Program-made: the position numbers and the translations under genes
Notes under the pieces: model-generated
The model's input: only the letters and a program-made list of their open reading frames with translations
Database searches by the model: none
Told to the model about the DNA's origin: nothing
Part shown: positions 21,833 to 28,495 of the stretch, piece by piece
Position numbering within the stretch: the first letter of the stretch is position 1
How the letters are laid out: each line of letters begins with the position of its first letter
DNA from: Micromonospora sp. WMMD1102
Lineage (GTDB): Bacteria > Actinomycetota > Actinomycetes > Mycobacteriales > Micromonosporaceae
Assembly: GCF_029626265.1 (NCBI RefSeq)
Contig: NZ_JARUBN010000001.1
Span: forward strand, 8,001,001 to 8,065,000
Reading direction: 5' to 3'
DNA: 64,000 nt

Positions 21833-22861
21833 CTATCCGACCGGGTCGGCCGGGTAGTCGATGCTGAGGATCTCGTACCGGCGCAGCGTGCCGACCGGCT
21901 CGCCGTCGTCGCCCGTCACCCGGGCGTCGTCCGAGTTCGTCCGCAGCAGCACCGCCAGCGCGTCGTAGAGCGACGACCCGAGCGGCACGGTCGGCAGCCC
22001 GGCGACCGCCTCCGGGTCGGCCGGCAGCGGGCGCAGCAGGTCCCGGGTCACCGGGGTGACCGCCAGTCGCCGGATCGCCCGGTCGGTCCCGACGAACTCC
22101 CGGACGAACGCCGAGGCCGGCTCGCCGAGCAGGGTCGCCGGGTTGGCGTACTGCTCCAGCCGGCCGCCCTGGGAGAGCACCACGATCCGGTCGCCGAGCC
22201 GGACCGCCTCGTCCAGGTCGTGCGTGACCAGCACGACCGTCTTGCGCACCTCGGCCTGAAGCCGCAGGAACTCCTCCTGGAGCCGGGCCCGGGCGATCGG
22301 GTCGACCGCCGAGAACGGCTCGTCCATCAGCAGCACCACCGGGTCGGCGGCCAGCGCCCGGGCGACCCCGACCCGCTGCCGCTGGCCGCCGGAGAGTTCG
22401 TGCGGATAGCGCGGGCCGAAGATGCCCGGGTCGAGGCCGACCAGCTCCAGCAGCTCGGCGACGCGCTGCGCGGTCCGGGCCTTCGGCCAGCCGAGCAGCC
22501 TCGGCACGGTGCCGACGTTCGTGGCGATGGTCTGGTGCGGGAAGAGCCCGACGTTCTGGATCACGTAGCCGATCCGCCGCCGCAGCCGTACCGGGTCGAC
22601 CCGGGTGACGTCCTCGTCGCCGAGCAGGATCCGCCCGGAGGTCGGCTCGATCAGCCGGTTGATCATGCGCAGCACGGTGGACTTGCCGCAGCCGGACGGC
22701 CCGATCAGCACCACCAGCTCGCCGGCCTTGACCTCCAGACTCAGCTCATCGACTGCCACCGTGCCGTCGGGATACTGCTTGCGTACCTGGTCGAGGGTTA
22801 TCGCGGCGGCACCCGTGGTGCCGGCGGACCCGGCGGAGCCGGCCTCCGGGGTAACGTCCAC
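21833..22861 (-). CDS. opuCA: Osmoprotectant ABC transporter ATP-binding protein
   Basis: The 342-residue ATPase would power glycine betaine/choline-type uptake with the permeases and binding protein encoded divergently. Features are Walker A GPSGCGKST (about residues 55-63), a Q-loop in VIQNVGLFPHQT, signature LSGGQRQRVGVARAL, Walker B VVLLMDEPFSAVDP and switch HDLDEA. A C-terminal CBS-like extension (about 280-342) is the usual osmosensing tail of OpuCA. The GTG at 22861 is preceded by GGAAGGA, which lies inside the first codons of the divergent permease gene. Confidence 0.92.
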   Translation of the reverse strand: MDVTPEAGSAGSAGTTGAAAITLDQVRKQYPDGTVAVDELSLEVKAGELVVLIGPSGCGKSTVLRMINRLIEPTSGRILLGDEDVTRVDPVRLRRRIGYVIQNVGLFPHQTIATNVGTVPRLLGWPKARTAQRVAELLELVGLDPGIFGPRYPHELSGGQRQRVGVARALAADPVVLLMDEPFSAVDPIARARLQEEFLRLQAEVRKTVVLVTHDLDEAVRLGDRIVVLSQGGRLEQYANPATLLGEPASAFVREFVGTDRAIRRLAVTPVTRDLLRPLPADPEAVAGLPTVPLGSSLYDALAVLLRTNSDDARVTGDDGEPVGTLRRYEILSIDYPADPVG

Positions 22862-22863
22862 GT
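22852..22863 (+). promoter_or_regulatory. Candidate -10 box for a leaderless opuCB transcript
   Basis: TAACGT (22852-22857) fits the actinobacterial TANNNT -10 pattern and ends 6 bases before the opuCB ATG at 22864. No Shine-Dalgarno is visible there, so a leaderless message starting at or next to the ATG is plausible. No clear -35 is seen. The box lies within the opuCA coding sequence. Confidence 0.3.
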
Positions 22864-23556
22864 ATGTCCTTCCGGGTGATGGACCGGGCTGACCCGGGTA
22901 ATCCGTGGTTCTCCTGGGATTATGTGCAGGGCAACTCCGAGACGATCGTCGCCGCCCTGCGCGAACACGCCGCCCTCACCGCGCAGGCCGTGCTGATCGC
23001 CGCGCTCGTCGCGATCCCGCTGGCCGTGCTGGCGTACTGGTTCCGGCCGCTCACCGGGCCGATTCTCGCACTCTCCGGCGTGCTCTACACGATCCCCTCG
23101 CTGGCGCTCTTCGCCTTCGTCGCACCGTACCTGGGCACGGGGACCGCGACGGTACTGCTCGGCCTGGTCCTCTACGCGCTGCTGCTGATCGTCCGCAACG
23201 CGCTCGCCGGGTTCAACCAGGTGCCGGAGGAGGTCCGGGACGCGGCACAGGGCATGGGGTACGGCCGGTTCGCCCGGCTGCTCCGGATCGACCTGCCGCT
23301 GGCGTTGCCGGGCATCTTCATCGGCCTGCGCCTGGCGACCGTCTCCACGGTGGCCCTGGTCACCGTCGGGGTACTCGTCGGACACGGCGGGCTCGGGCAG
23401 CTCATCCTCGGCGGGTTCCGGAACAACTTCTTCAAGGCCGAGATCATGACCGGGACGCTGCTCTGCGTACTCCTGGCTCTGGTCCTGGATCTGGCCCTGG
23501 CCGGCCTGGCCCGGCTGCTCACCCCGTGGGCCCGGCGCCGGGCGGCGGCCGGATGA
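22864..23556 (+). CDS. opuCB: Osmoprotectant ABC transporter permease
   Basis: The 230-residue permease has about six transmembrane helices and the EAA-type loop EEVRDAAQGMGYGRFARLLRIDLPLALPGI, which docks the ATPase. A short periplasmic start (NPWFSWDYVQGN) is typical of OpuCB/YehY proteins. ATG at 22864 lies only 2 bases from the divergent opuCA start; an internal ATG at 22879 is an alternative. It is followed after 43 bases by the second permease. Confidence 0.92.
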   Translation: MSFRVMDRADPGNPWFSWDYVQGNSETIVAALREHAALTAQAVLIAALVAIPLAVLAYWFRPLTGPILALSGVLYTIPSLALFAFVAPYLGTGTATVLLGLVLYALLLIVRNALAGFNQVPEEVRDAAQGMGYGRFARLLRIDLPLALPGIFIGLRLATVSTVALVTVGVLVGHGGLGQLILGGFRNNFFKAEIMTGTLLCVLLALVLDLALAGLARLLTPWARRRAAAG

Positions 23557-23599: not shown

Positions 23600-24334
23600 A
23601 TGAACCCGATCGAGCAGGCGGTCGTCTGGCTCAACGACCCGTTGAACTGGACCAATCCCGGCGGGGTCTTCGACCGGCTGGTGGAGCACCTGGGCATCTC
23701 GGCCGTCGCCGTGGCGCTCGGCTGCCTGGTCGCCTGGCCGCTCGGGCTCTGGCTCGGTCACATCGGCCGGGGCGGCGGGGCGGTGGTGCTGGTCTGCAAT
23801 GTCACGCTCGCCATCCCCACCATCGCGTTGCTGACCATCCTGCCGCTTACCGCGCTCAACTTCGGCAAGCCGCCGGTGATCATCGCGCTGGCGGTCTTCG
23901 CGGTGCCGCCGCTGCTGGCGAACGCGTACACCGGGGTCCGGCAGGTGGACCCGGAGGTGCGTGACGCCGCACGCGGGATGGGGCTCTCCGGTGGGCAGTT
24001 GCTGCGCCGGGTGGAGCTGCCGCTCGCGGTGCCGTACCTGGCGGCCGGGTTCCGGACCGCCGCCGTGCAGGTGGTGGCGACCGCCGCGCTCGCCTCGTTC
24101 GTCAACGGCGGCGGGCTGGGGCAGATCATCAGCGCCGGGTTCGGGCTGGGCATATCGGTCGGCGGCGGGCAGATCCTGGCCGGCGGCCTGCTGGTCGCGG
24201 TACTCGCGCTGCTGGTCGAGCTGGCCTTCGGGCTGGTGGAACGCGTGGTCACGCCCCGGCCGCTGCGCCGCGCCCGGCGCCGGCTCGTCCGGCGGGCCGA
24301 CCAGCGGGCAGCGGCGGCGATCACCGGCTCCTAG
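23600..24334 (+). CDS. opuCD: Osmoprotectant ABC transporter permease
   Basis: The 244-residue permease is paralogous to the upstream one. It has about six helices, a 'DPEVRDAARGMGLSGGQLL' EAA loop, and SFVNGGGLGQIISAGFGLG near the C-terminus, as in OpuCB/OpuCD/YehW proteins. It begins with NPIEQAVVWLNDPLNW. GGGAGGGTGGCC precedes the ATG. It would heterodimerise with the upstream permease to form the channel. The stop codon lies inside a 20-base tandem duplication. Confidence 0.92.
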   Translation: MNPIEQAVVWLNDPLNWTNPGGVFDRLVEHLGISAVAVALGCLVAWPLGLWLGHIGRGGGAVVLVCNVTLAIPTIALLTILPLTALNFGKPPVIIALAVFAVPPLLANAYTGVRQVDPEVRDAARGMGLSGGQLLRRVELPLAVPYLAAGFRTAAVQVVATAALASFVNGGGLGQIISAGFGLGISVGGGQILAGGLLVAVLALLVELAFGLVERVVTPRPLRRARRRLVRRADQRAAAAITGS

Positions 24335-24659: not shown

Positions 24660-25673
24660 ATGCGTACGCGTACACGTCTGGCAGTGGGCGCGGCCGGCGC
24701 CATCGTCGCGGCCGGCTTTCTCGCCGGCTGCGGTGGGGCCGGCTCGTCCGGCACCCAGGCCCCGGCCACCGGGGCCCAGGGCGCCGGATGCGCGCCGGTG
24801 GCGGGGTCGGGCCTGGTCGTGCTCGACGACGACAAGAAGCTCCAGAACACCGACAACATCATTCCGGCGATCAACAGCAAGGTCGCCCAGCCGCAGCTGG
24901 TCGCGGCCCTGGACAAGGTTTCGGACAGCCTCGACACGACCAAGCTGATCAACCTGAACAAGGCGGTCGACGTGGACCGCAAGACCCCGAAGGCGGCCGC
25001 CGAGGAGTTCGCCGCGGCCAGCAACCTCACGGCGGGCATCCCGACCGGCGGCAGCGGCAACATCACCGTCGGCGCGGCCAACTTCAGCGAGAACCAGACC
25101 CTCGGCGAGCTGTACCGGATCGCCCTCACCGCCGCCGGCTACCAGGTCAAGGTGCAGCAGATCGGCAACCGCGAGCTGTACGAGCCGGCGCTGGAGAAGG
25201 GCGACATCCAGGTCGTCCCGGAGTACGCCGCCACGATGGCGGACTTCCTGAACAACAAGGTGAACGCCAACGCCGGCGCCACCCCGCCGCCGATCTCCTC
25301 GCCCGACCTCGACCAGACGGTGAACGGGCTCAAGGCGGCCGGCGAGAAGGTGGGGATCACCTTCGGCAAGCCCTCGGCCGCACAGGACCAGAACGCGTTC
25401 GCGGTCACCAAGGCGTTCGCCGACAAGTACGGCGTACGCACGCTCAGCGAACTGGCCGCGAAGTGCTCCGGCTCGGCGACCGTACTCGGCGGCCCGCCGG
25501 AGTGCCCGCAGCGGCCGAAGTGCCAGGCCGGGCTGGTCCAGGTCTACAACTTCAACGCGGGCCGGTTCGACTCGCTCGACGCCGGTGGCCCGCAGACCAA
25601 GTCGGCGCTGACCACCGGCACGATCAGCGTCGGACTGGTCTTCTCCTCCGACGGCGCGCTCGCCGCGAGCTGA
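24660..25673 (+). CDS. opuCC: Osmoprotectant-binding lipoprotein with circularly permuted domain
   Basis: This 337-residue lipoprotein has a signal peptide and lipobox LAGC with Cys24. It should capture betaine-type solutes for the OpuC permeases encoded upstream. In ProX/OsmF/OpuCC proteins the mature chain normally begins with IxVGSxNFxE and ends with a segment beginning LVVLEDxxxxFxxxNxxP. Here that C-terminal segment (GLVVLDDDKKLQNTDNIIP ... AAAEEFAAASNL) is at residues 51-123. It is followed by a short Gly/Thr linker and then the usual N-terminal lobe from residue 135 (ITVGAANFSENQTLGELY). The chain stops at VGLVFSSDGALAAS, exactly where the moved segment would normally follow. The order is read directly from the sequence. 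A functional fold is expected if the termini are close, but this is not proven. Confidence 0.88.
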   Translation: MRTRTRLAVGAAGAIVAAGFLAGCGGAGSSGTQAPATGAQGAGCAPVAGSGLVVLDDDKKLQNTDNIIPAINSKVAQPQLVAALDKVSDSLDTTKLINLNKAVDVDRKTPKAAAEEFAAASNLTAGIPTGGSGNITVGAANFSENQTLGELYRIALTAAGYQVKVQQIGNRELYEPALEKGDIQVVPEYAATMADFLNNKVNANAGATPPPISSPDLDQTVNGLKAAGEKVGITFGKPSAAQDQNAFAVTKAFADKYGVRTLSELAAKCSGSATVLGGPPECPQRPKCQAGLVQVYNFNAGRFDSLDAGGPQTKSALTTGTISVGLVFSSDGALAAS

Positions 25674-25697
25674 CCGCCCGCCGGCGCGACTGACACA

Positions 25698-25738
25698 GGG
25701 GCCGGCCGGCACCACCGTGGGTGGGGTCGGCCGGCCCC
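25698..25738 (+). terminator. Intrinsic-type hairpin after the binding-protein gene
   Basis: GGGGCCGGCCG (25698-25708) pairs perfectly with CGGCCGGCCCC (25728-25738), with a 19-base loop that can itself fold (CCACC/GGTGG). TTCCTT follows. It lies 25 bases after the opuCC stop. Confidence 0.75.
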
Positions 25739-25807
25739 TTCCTTCACGTCTTCCTTTACCGGCGTCGCCATTTCGGTCCACGGCAACTGTGGGTAGGCTC
25801 GACTGCC

Positions 25808-28495
25808 ATGTCAGCCCGCGAGGCGCCCGAGGAAACCCGCCGTAGGCCGCTGCTGACCGTACTCTTCTGGGTCGGGGTGGGGCTGGCTCCGCTGGCCGCC
25901 CTGTTACTCCTGCTCGGGCAGGGTAACGGCCCGCTGCGGATCGCGGCGGTGCTGGCCGTACTCGCGGTTGTCCTGATCGGACTGTCGATCACGTTGCGCG
26001 GCGACTCGGAGGGTGTCCGGCTCGACCTGGAGGAAACCCTCGTCGAGGAACTCGACGACCTGCGGGGCGAACTGCGCAACGACATCGCCACCGCCGCCCG
26101 GGCCACACACAAGGCGTTCGGCGAGAAGCTGGAGGTCGTACAGGGCAACGTCGAGGCGCTGCGCGGCGAGATCGAGTCGGTCCGGGCCGGTACGGCCGGG
26201 CCGGTCGCACCGATGGTCGCCAGAGTGCCCGGTGCCGCCACTGTGCCGGGTGTTACGAGTGTGGCGGGTGCCGGAAATGTGGCGGGTGCCGCGAGTGTGC
26301 CGGGTGCCGCGAGCGGGTCGGCCGGTGATGCGGGGGTGGTCGCCGGTGCGCCGGTCCCGGCAGCTACGCCCGCCGGCCGGGCGGCGGCGAGGTCGCCCCG
26401 GAGCGGTCGCGAGCACGGCGATCCGGCGCGCGCCGGCCGGGTATCGGACGGGCCGGCCCCGCCGAGCTGGGCGCCCGGCGGACCGGTAGCCGGCTCCCGC
26501 CCCGACGGACCCCGCCGGGCGGTCGGCGACTCGGCTCCGCCGCCGCTGGAGGACCCGGACGAGACCGGCGAGTTCCACGGCCGGTCGGTCGGCGGGCAGC
26601 ATGGCGGCGGGCAGCATGGCGGCGGGCAGCACTCCGCCGGCCAGCACTCCGCCGGCTACCGGGCCGGCGGCCAGCACAGCGGTGGTGACCGGGGCGGATC
26701 GGCCCGGGGGCGGTACGGCCGGGACGACACCCCGACGGGCGGGTCCGGGCGGCACGGCCAGTCGTGGGCCCCGCCGGGACCCCGGCAGGGCGGCTCCGGC
26801 GGCCTGCCGGGCAACCCTGGCCCGACGCCCGGCCCGATGTCCGGGCCGCCGCTGGGCCGGGGGGTGGTCCGGCACACCGAGACGGTTCAGGTGACCACCC
26901 GGCAGACCATCGTCGGTGCGCACGAGGACGACGACCACTTCGGTTACGGCGCCGGTGCGGGGACGTACGGCGGCGGCGGTTACGGCGGCGGCGCAGCCCA
27001 GCCGGGCGGTTACGGCACAAGCGGTCACGGCACCGGTTACGGCGGAGCACCGACCGGCAGCCACGGCGGCGGGACCTACGGCGCCGGAACGTACGGGGGC
27101 GGAACGTACGGGGGCGGGAACCATGGCGCCGGGACCTACGGCGGCGGGAACTACGGCGGTCACGGCGGCGGTGGTGAACGGGGCGGGAGCGCCGGCCGGG
27201 GCGGAGACGAGCGTCGAGGTGGCGGCGGTTACGGCGGCGACACCTACGGCGGTCGCGGAGAACGCGGCGGCGGGACCGGCGGCCGGGGCGGTGACGAGCC
27301 CCGCCACGGCGGCGGTTACGACGACGGACCCGGTGTTCACGGCGGTGCTGGCGACCGTGCGAGCGGTCCCGGCCGTGACGACCGTGTGAGCGGTGCCGGC
27401 CGTGACGACCGTGCGGGCGATGGCGGTGGCGGCTACGGCCGTGCCGGTGGATGGGGCGGCGGGGAGCCGAACGGATACCGGCCCGGCGACCAGGACGAGG
27501 TCCAGGATGCCGGCAACACCTACGGCGGCGGCGGCCACGGCGGTGCCACCCACGGCGGTGCCACCCACGGCGGCGGTTACGGAGGCGGCGGCAGCCAGCC
27601 GGACGGCCGGGACGAGCCGCCGGACGACCGGCGGTCGGCACAGGGTCGCCAGCCGGGTGAGTCCACCGGACAGGGGCGGGACGGGTGGCGGTTCGGCGAG
27701 GGTGTCTGGCGCGGCCGTTCGGCCGAGCCGGATCCGGACCTGGAGACCGGCGACCCGGCCGACGACTCGTACTGGGCCGAGCTGCGGGCCGGTGACAACT
27801 GGACCTCGGTACGCACCGACGACCGTGGCCGGGAGGTCCGGATGGGCGAGCGCCAGGCGTCGATGCGCTCCGACGAGTCGGGTACGGAGTTGCGCGTCGA
27901 GGGCCGCTGGGCGGAGATGCGCCGCGAAGAGCCGAGGCCGGAGCAGGACCGGCGGGCCGGGCGCGAGTGGTCGGAGTCGCGCGACGACGACCGGTCTACC
28001 GGCGGCCGGCACGGTCCGGCCGGCTGGTCCGGCGGCGCTGGCGACGACGGGAACCGGCGTGGCGGCGGTGGCGGCGACGGGAACCGGCGTGGCGGCGGTG
28101 GCGGCGACGGGAACCGGCGTGGCGGCGGTGGCGGCGACGGGAACCGGCGTGGCGGCGGTGGCGGCGACGGGGACTGGCGTGGCGGCGGTGGCGGCGACGG
28201 GGACTGGCGTGGCGGCGGTGGCGGCGACGGGGACTGGCGTGGCGGCGGCGACCTCGGCACCGGGGGTCAGGGGTGGCAGTGCTCCGTTGCTGCTCCGGCG
28301 CTGCCGGCCGGCGGCGTGGACCCGGCCGCCGCCTGGGGTCCGCCCCGCCAGGAGCCCGAACCGGAGCCGGCCCGCCGAGGACGGCGGCACCGGGACGACG
28401 AGGAGTACGGCTACCCGCCGCTGGACGAGTCACCCCGGGCCGGCGGCACCCGACGGTCGGAGTACGGCTACGCCACCGACGGCGACTGGCGCTGA
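25808..28495 (+). CDS. Large glycine-rich disordered membrane protein
   Basis: Start chosen at ATG 25808, giving 895 residues. The N-terminus has two hydrophobic helices (about residues 17-38 and 43-60). A charged segment with coiled-coil character follows (LEETLVEELDDLRGEL ... GEKLEVVQGNVEALRGEIESVR, about 74-125). The rest is low complexity: Val/Ala/Gly VPGA-type repeats, a long Gly/Tyr/Thr region of GTYGGG-like units, and seven 10-residue repeats DGNRRGGGGG or DGDWRGGGGG. The C-terminus is acidic, ending GYATDGDW-R. No enzyme domain is seen. A surface-scaffold or phase-separating role is pure speculation. Very GC-rich simple repeats make assembly errors possible. Confidence 0.65.
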   Translation: MSAREAPEETRRRPLLTVLFWVGVGLAPLAALLLLLGQGNGPLRIAAVLAVLAVVLIGLSITLRGDSEGVRLDLEETLVEELDDLRGELRNDIATAARATHKAFGEKLEVVQGNVEALRGEIESVRAGTAGPVAPMVARVPGAATVPGVTSVAGAGNVAGAASVPGAASGSAGDAGVVAGAPVPAATPAGRAAARSPRSGREHGDPARAGRVSDGPAPPSWAPGGPVAGSRPDGPRRAVGDSAPPPLEDPDETGEFHGRSVGGQHGGGQHGGGQHSAGQHSAGYRAGGQHSGGDRGGSARGRYGRDDTPTGGSGRHGQSWAPPGPRQGGSGGLPGNPGPTPGPMSGPPLGRGVVRHTETVQVTTRQTIVGAHEDDDHFGYGAGAGTYGGGGYGGGAAQPGGYGTSGHGTGYGGAPTGSHGGGTYGAGTYGGGTYGGGNHGAGTYGGGNYGGHGGGGERGGSAGRGGDERRGGGGYGGDTYGGRGERGGGTGGRGGDEPRHGGGYDDGPGVHGGAGDRASGPGRDDRVSGAGRDDRAGDGGGGYGRAGGWGGGEPNGYRPGDQDEVQDAGNTYGGGGHGGATHGGATHGGGYGGGGSQPDGRDEPPDDRRSAQGRQPGESTGQGRDGWRFGEGVWRGRSAEPDPDLETGDPADDSYWAELRAGDNWTSVRTDDRGREVRMGERQASMRSDESGTELRVEGRWAEMRREEPRPEQDRRAGREWSESRDDDRSTGGRHGPAGWSGGAGDDGNRRGGGGGDGNRRGGGGGDGNRRGGGGGDGNRRGGGGGDGDWRGGGGGDGDWRGGGGGDGDWRGGGDLGTGGQGWQCSVAAPALPAGGVDPAAAWGPPRQEPEPEPARRGRRHRDDEEYGYPPLDESPRAGGTRRSEYGYATDGDWR
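28046..28255. repeat. 7 x 30-base in-frame tandem repeat
   Basis: Seven contiguous 30-base units begin at 28046, every 30 bases. Four encode DGNRRGGGGG and three encode DGDWRGGGGG (the last diverging at its end). Units within each class are identical, a sign of recent expansion. Confidence 0.9.

Follow-up and report, generated by a model that had tools for sequence, protein, structure and literature searches.

Does a gene whose product seems to begin with its own C-terminal part encode a real, circularly permuted protein, or does it reflect a mistake in the sequence? One gene in a stretch of 64,000 nucleotides from Micromonospora sp. WMMD1102 (the whole stretch analysed is called the window here) raises this question. 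It encodes a substrate-binding lipoprotein of the OpuCC/ProX/OsmF type, and an initial annotation had proposed an intact, circularly permuted protein. The window protein is confirmed as a real circular permutation, with the order C-N1-N2 in place of the canonical N1-N2-C. We call this order type 1. Taken as a whole, the gene very probably encodes a binding lipoprotein, intact and under selection, that serves an opuC-type ATP-binding cassette (ABC) importer and descends from a canonical gene; the permutation would have happened once, in an ancestor belonging to the window's class.

The permuted order

The gene and its parts are as follows.

24660..25673, + strand: type 1 circularly permuted substrate-binding lipoprotein gene; 337 aa, stop codon included, without internal stop
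24660..24731, + strand: predicted signal peptide and lipobox, residues 1-24 (LAGC, with C24 the expected lipidated Cys; from a pattern in the sequence)
24780..24812, + strand: new N-terminal arm, residues 41-51, containing C44 (24789-24791); from the L068 alignment and model confidence
24813..25028, + strand: C segment, residues 52-123, from LVVLDDD...NxxP on; corresponds to the C-terminal part of canonical proteins, with second hinge strand and remainder of domain I
25029..25058, + strand: linker from old C-terminus to old N-terminus, residues 124-133 (TAGIPTGGSG)
25059..25460, + strand: N1 segment (NITVGAANF...), residues 134-267; the canonical mature N-terminal part, with domain I, the first hinge and the beginning of domain II
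25464..25466, + strand: C269, proposed disulfide partner of C44; co-occurs with it across type 1, at a site without Cys in canonical and type 2 sequences
25473..25670, + strand: N2 segment, residues 272-337; the remainder of domain II

The reading frame is intact, and the other landmarks described initially also hold: a moved block at residues 51-123, a Gly/Thr linker, an old N-terminal strand at I135 and a protein end at VFSSDGALAAS. The protein stops at SSDGALAAS, where canonical proteins continue into LVVLxDD. The lipobox pattern of a bacterial lipoprotein is present (MRTRTRLAVGAAGAIVAAGFLAGC), with C24 invariant in alignment A2.

The PF04069 match (138.5 bits against a cut-off of 21.2) places the protein in this superfamily, and is split in two stretches. 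In a phmmer search of the PDB, residues 5-164 and 201-268 of Archaeoglobus fulgidus ProX (1sw1) are matched by query residues 132-300 and 52-118, so the segment order is swapped. The two displayed stretches on 5teu are swapped likewise, as are those of a profile of 49 type 1 sequences against EgtUC (142-331 on 16-197; 51-123 on 200-274). The NCBIfam OsmF profile finds two stretches in the window protein, the better being residues 134-336 on profile positions 4-205, and a single stretch (55-328 on 5-282) in L068, a canonical actinomycete control. With 66.6 bits against a curated cut-off of 400, the protein falls outside the OsmF equivalog (NF049931); it also lacks the collinear N1-N2-C order of canonical cluster F-III.

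A single alignment of the window protein with L068 reaches a score of 523 and extends over residues 10-210 of the 285 in L068, i.e., N1-N2 only. With the window protein written twice, the score is 690 and L068 10-284 is covered (275 residues, 54% identity), with one insertion of about 10 residues, at the new N-terminus. No alignment with canonical members that we found was both full-length and collinear. Coincidental similarity was tried as an explanation and rejected.

A canonical gene mis-joined during assembly, annotation or cloning has nothing for it beyond the oddity of the gene order, and its probability is negligible. The genome itself holds a single match to the protein. All 120 proteins listed as matches (window included; 74-100% identical) have the same C-N1-N2 order, and so do the best 80 of 282 relatives in a scan of named genomes. 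These relatives come from organisms whose genomes were sequenced separately, several of them on contigs of multi-megabase length; the lists were chosen by type 1 likeness. Purifying selection is indicated by low ratios of nonsynonymous to synonymous substitution (dN/dS 0.114, 0.191, 0.188, 0.228 and 0.118 in five pairs). The initial annotation was thus right that this is no simple assembly break: relatives of separate origin share the order, close ones among them.

Beyond the window, a classifier built on N1, N2 and C profiles was given the open reading frames (ORFs) of 250 loci and 240 proteins. It returned 290 C-N1-N2 (type 1), 138 N2-C-N1 (type 2) and 63 N1-N2-C (canonical) sequences and two incomplete ones. 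The counts are redundant (the window protein is itself L001, and there are 272 distinct type 1 stretches), and their ratio is uninformative on abundance, since a type 1 or type 2 query was used in the searches that yielded most rows of these two types. The three-type counts exclude L220, which was subsequently assigned to type 3, and the second of the ORFs in L235.

Cut site and cysteine pair

The structure prediction proposed initially as a check gave a confident type 1 model, with a mean predicted local distance difference test score (pLDDT) of 89.2, a predicted template modeling score (pTM) of 0.82 and 276 residues at or above 90. The model matches OpuCC/ProX/EgtU-type chains over about residues 131-337 and OpuAC over 39-267. 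A full-length structural match was absent among the 50 entries shown in a second look at the Foldseek ranking, a number that is no proof of absence. We counted the fold as two-lobed Type II; the type 1 lobes would still form a type II binding protein.

Binding proteins of the OpuAC kind are placed in cluster F-I and those of the OpuCC/ProX type in cluster F-III. One alternative is that type 1 has the order already known from cluster F-I. OpuAC of B. subtilis (2b4l) is, like type 1, permuted and cut in domain II, and binds glycine betaine. Its cut lies in another loop, its order is that of type 2, and a type 2 model matches 2b4l nearly in full. The type 1 match to 2b4l runs only from 39-267 on 41-272 and is not full-length and collinear. 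We rejected the OpuAC order for type 1; that the two are the same is very improbable. The ligand residues of OpuAC had suggested a chain start in domain II.

In the cited passage on EgtU, D1 comprises residues 233-331 and 445-506 and D2 residues 341-432 (PMC9732360). By profile and structure alignments, the last residues of the window protein align near EgtU 426-428 and its C segment begins near 429. Mapping on this solved relative, with the domain limits of that passage, shows the cut in domain II, just before the second hinge strand. With the cut there, both crossings between the lobes would remain, one of them without a peptide bond to the body of domain II.

The new arm belongs to the stretch of about 10 residues without a counterpart in canonical L068. 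It carries C44, and C44 and C269 behave as a pair. In exact columns, both are present in 285/290 type 1 sequences, neither in 5/290 and one alone in 0/290; among distinct type 1 stretches, both are present in 267/272 and neither in 5/272. Cys is found at these sites in none of the 63 canonical and none of the 138 type 2 sequences. The arm is ordered in the model (residues 41-50, mean pLDDT 95, beta bridge at residue 42). From these data we infer that C44-C269 may be a disulfide staple, evolved later, that pins the arm on domain II.

That the permutation is right and the two cysteines form no staple, being paired otherwise, reduced or used in folding only, is a less likely reading. It can draw on the five type 1 sequences that manage without both cysteines and on the pair having changed in a single evolutionary event. 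The all-or-none distribution, the lack of Cys at these sites in the other two orders and the ordered arm all speak for the staple. So do C282 and C288, the other mature cysteines, which are present in 290/290 type 1 sequences and hence are not the partners that come and go. A different extra Cys pair occurs in canonical L072-L075, with one Cys before the first strand and the second about 30 residues on.

Origins of the permuted types

Trees were built from 71 and 95 de-permuted rows, with near-duplicates dropped by per-type identity thresholds and rows below 230 residues also dropped. The 95-row tree holds 61 canonical, 21 type 1 and 13 type 2 rows and is midpoint rooted; type 3 is outside the trees. 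Type 1 is one clade (21/21 rows, support 100/99) among canonical sequences. The de-permuted trees give type 1 a single origin, nested among canonical sequences. The first split within type 1 separates five Cys-less sequences of family f10 (100/96) from 16 Cys-bearing rows (100/97). Since the five Cys-less sequences form the sister branch of those that bear the pair, the cut would be earlier than the Cys pair, unless the pair was lost once.

Type 2 relatives (N2-C-N1, the OpuAC order) occur in several families of the phylum (L112-L114, L117-L121, L211-L219, L241; P0122-P0241), under names that include Streptacidiphilus, Streptomyces and Jatrophihabitantaceae. Even on the starred branches alone, type 2 needs three changes in the 95-row tree. 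Its groups are (a) L112 and L118-L121, (b) L211-L213 and L241 and (c) L215 and L217-L219. In approximately unbiased (AU) tests, for which the groups were chosen after being seen in the tree, a single type 2 clade was rejected (p 2e-47 with 71 rows, p 1.3e-9 with 95 rows), and b and c as one clade were weakly rejected (p 0.034). After de-permutation, identity to the respective canonical sister is 61, 70 and 64% for one member of each group. These results point to two or three separate changes. It is rather improbable that type 2 arose once and was split wrongly by the tree, whether through recombination with canonical paralogues or through a return to canonical order. In favor of one origin, all three groups begin with an IASxLxLGG-like motif, which counts against three origins, and parsimony is unable to separate gain from loss of type 2. 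The weakness of the rejection of b with c also leans that way; the rejected one-clade constraint and the identities to separate canonical sisters stand against it.

A third order, type 3 (N2b-C-N1-N2a), is found in two genomes (L220/L251 and L252). Its canonical relatives reach at most 82% identity over the N1-N2a part. Type 3 appears to be a recent event and would be suited to a DNA-level study of mechanism. All three cut types map to domain II, which would move the lipid anchor off domain I.

The likely origin of type 1 would be a tandem duplication, an in-frame fusion of the end of copy 1 to the start of copy 2, and trimming to new ends. Tandem copies do occur, with two type 1 genes in each of L094, L095 and L096, all from one genus (g79 of family f16), and two canonical-like ORFs in L235; they are circumstantial for the duplication route. 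The cut would have removed the peptide bond that feeds the second hinge strand out of domain II. The new N-terminal arm would pack on domain II and, except in the sister branch, C44-C269 would pin it there, the disulfide having evolved after the cut. The lipid anchor would hold domain II instead of domain I, and venus-flytrap binding and delivery to the permease would proceed as in canonical members.

A wider reading is put forward tentatively, as falling somewhat short of an even chance. It holds that this family has been permuted repeatedly in Actinomycetota (one type 1 event, two or three of type 2 and one of type 3), OpuAC being an additional, more remote case. Each cut found falls in domain II and would shift the anchor there from domain I, the type 1 disulfide would replace the lost hinge bond, and relocation of the anchor would have been selected and not be the result of neutral drift.

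Several points weigh against the account of type 1 given here. The Cys pair changes on a single branch, so its co-occurrence is one event and not repeated covariation. The junction of type 1 with the nearest canonical group is weak (86/76), so the sister group is weakly supported. No duplicated type 1 intermediate was seen. The betaine cage is only half kept. According to the cited passage, the cage tyrosines of A. fulgidus ProX are Y63, Y111, Y190 and Y214 (PMC10087775); the residues aligned to them are Y189, N245, F328 (via EgtUC) and D65, two of four aromatic and short of an aromatic cage for quaternary amines. In the ProX alignment, R285 and D243 lie opposite R149 and D109. The canonical sister L068 has pocket letters identical to those of the window protein, so the change in the pocket was not caused by the permutation. 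The original label of osmoprotectant-binding protein thus fits the family (PF04069, OpuCC type) better than the ligand, which is likely a small solute of uncertain class.

Locus, spread and known systems

The neighboring features are as follows.

21833..22861, - strand: OpuCA-like ATPase, divergent (ABC_tran match; CBS match under its cut-off)
22864..23556, + strand: permease 1 (BPD_transp_1)
23600..24334, + strand: permease 2 (BPD_transp_1), directly upstream of the binding-protein gene
25697..25739, + strand: GC-rich hairpin beyond the 3' end of the gene, a possible terminator lacking a T-tract

The two permeases and the divergent ATPase bear out the opuC-type locus. The proposed terminator is partly upheld: the hairpin is strong (fold z -4.89 for 25674-25760), and a consensus scan that requires a T-tract found no T-tract terminator. 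An upstream permease accompanies 165/170 type 1, 51/63 canonical and 15/18 type 2 ORFs of the loci (the type 1 figure is based on its ten most frequent patterns, with 169 ORFs; several loci are cut off too close to judge). The type 1 gene occupies the same operon place as canonical genes. At 22861-22864 about 3 bases separate the listed starts of the ATPase and permease ORFs, so one or both of the true starts probably lie further in. Downstream lies a 924-aa ORF (25721-28495, + strand) in which Gly, His and Asp abound and short repeats (GDGNRRGGGG...) are nearly identical.

Type 1 was followed through samples of genomes, in which the strongest matches are listed and counts are lower bounds. 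In the family sample, 135 of 150 genomes had a match, and by hand count at least 113 had one that starts no later than query residue 18 and reaches at least residue 335. Among these, G024 has an in-frame TGA; the count omits G063, a partial match at a contig end, and G029, whose span has an internal stop and turned out to be canonical (L116). In the order (249 genomes) and class (296) samples, full-span matches were also found in families f5, f7, f10, f13, f16, f23, f43 and f54. Other families there had canonical or type 2 spans among the matches listed. The exceptions are G162 in f14, where a piece at a contig end covers query 1-123, and G266 in f15, where the span has an internal stop and turned out to be canonical (L115). 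The phylum sample gave a match in 145 of 296 genomes. Full-span hits among the matches listed came from two genomes of the window's own family; there was also one f8 span with an internal stop (G181). The best 80 of the 282 relatives in named genomes included Micromonospora, Dactylosporangium, Virgisporangium, Planosporangium, Geodermatophilus, Blastococcus, Promicromonospora, Cellulomonas, Actinotalea, Oerskovia, Isoptericola, Georgenia, Demequina and Motilibacter. L132 and L186 are type 1 genes on records titled Spirochaetaceae MAG (metagenome-assembled genome) and Bacillus sp. AZ43, of unverified organism; they are 75% and 62% identical to an actinomycete query and perhaps mis-binned or misnamed. 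Scanning viral_contigs with one type 1 relative as query yielded 5 pattern matches, of which 0 were relatives.

Once de-permuted, type 1 is homologous to OpuCC, OpuBC, ProX (Archaeoglobus), OsmF and EgtUC (PF04069; cluster F-III) over nearly all of the mature length, and both kinds are encoded beside OpuC-type permeases and an ATPase. It differs from them in its C-N1-N2 order, the extra C44/C269, the new arm, the anchor on domain II and the half-lost betaine cage. In the cited part of the CPSARST paper, circular-permutation relationships are given among the betaine-binding entries 2b4l, 1r9l and 1sw1 (PMC2395249). Another natural permutation of a tethered binding protein is TpMglB-2 of Treponema pallidum, a Type I/cluster B lipoprotein, for which the authors raise anchoring as a possible reason in the passages cited (PMC4990184). 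It belongs to another class of substrate-binding protein; its first three N-lobe strands lie near the C-terminus, a fourth cross-over is added and those passages describe no disulfide staple (PMC4990184). Type 1, type 3, the staple and repeated permutation within the OpuCC/ProX group were not found among the listed titles and abstract openings in searches of the open-licence literature (Creative Commons-licensed PMC articles), where the CPSARST and TpMglB-2 papers were the relevant ones. Permutation among betaine-binding proteins is already published; on these sources, what is unusual here is the density of events.

Profile-based annotation shows such proteins as two partial matches only, so domains that seem to be swapped need not point to a faulty assembly. 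Within a single family there are three cut points, canonical sisters at close range, living Cys-less members and a tree from which the order of events can be inferred. It makes testable how a two-lobed binding protein survives the loss of a hinge bond, whether a disulfide can stand in for that bond, and whether the lobe that bears the anchor matters for handing the solute over to the permease. Since other members from this phylum are cut at two further points, nature has in effect run an experiment in protein rewiring with this family.
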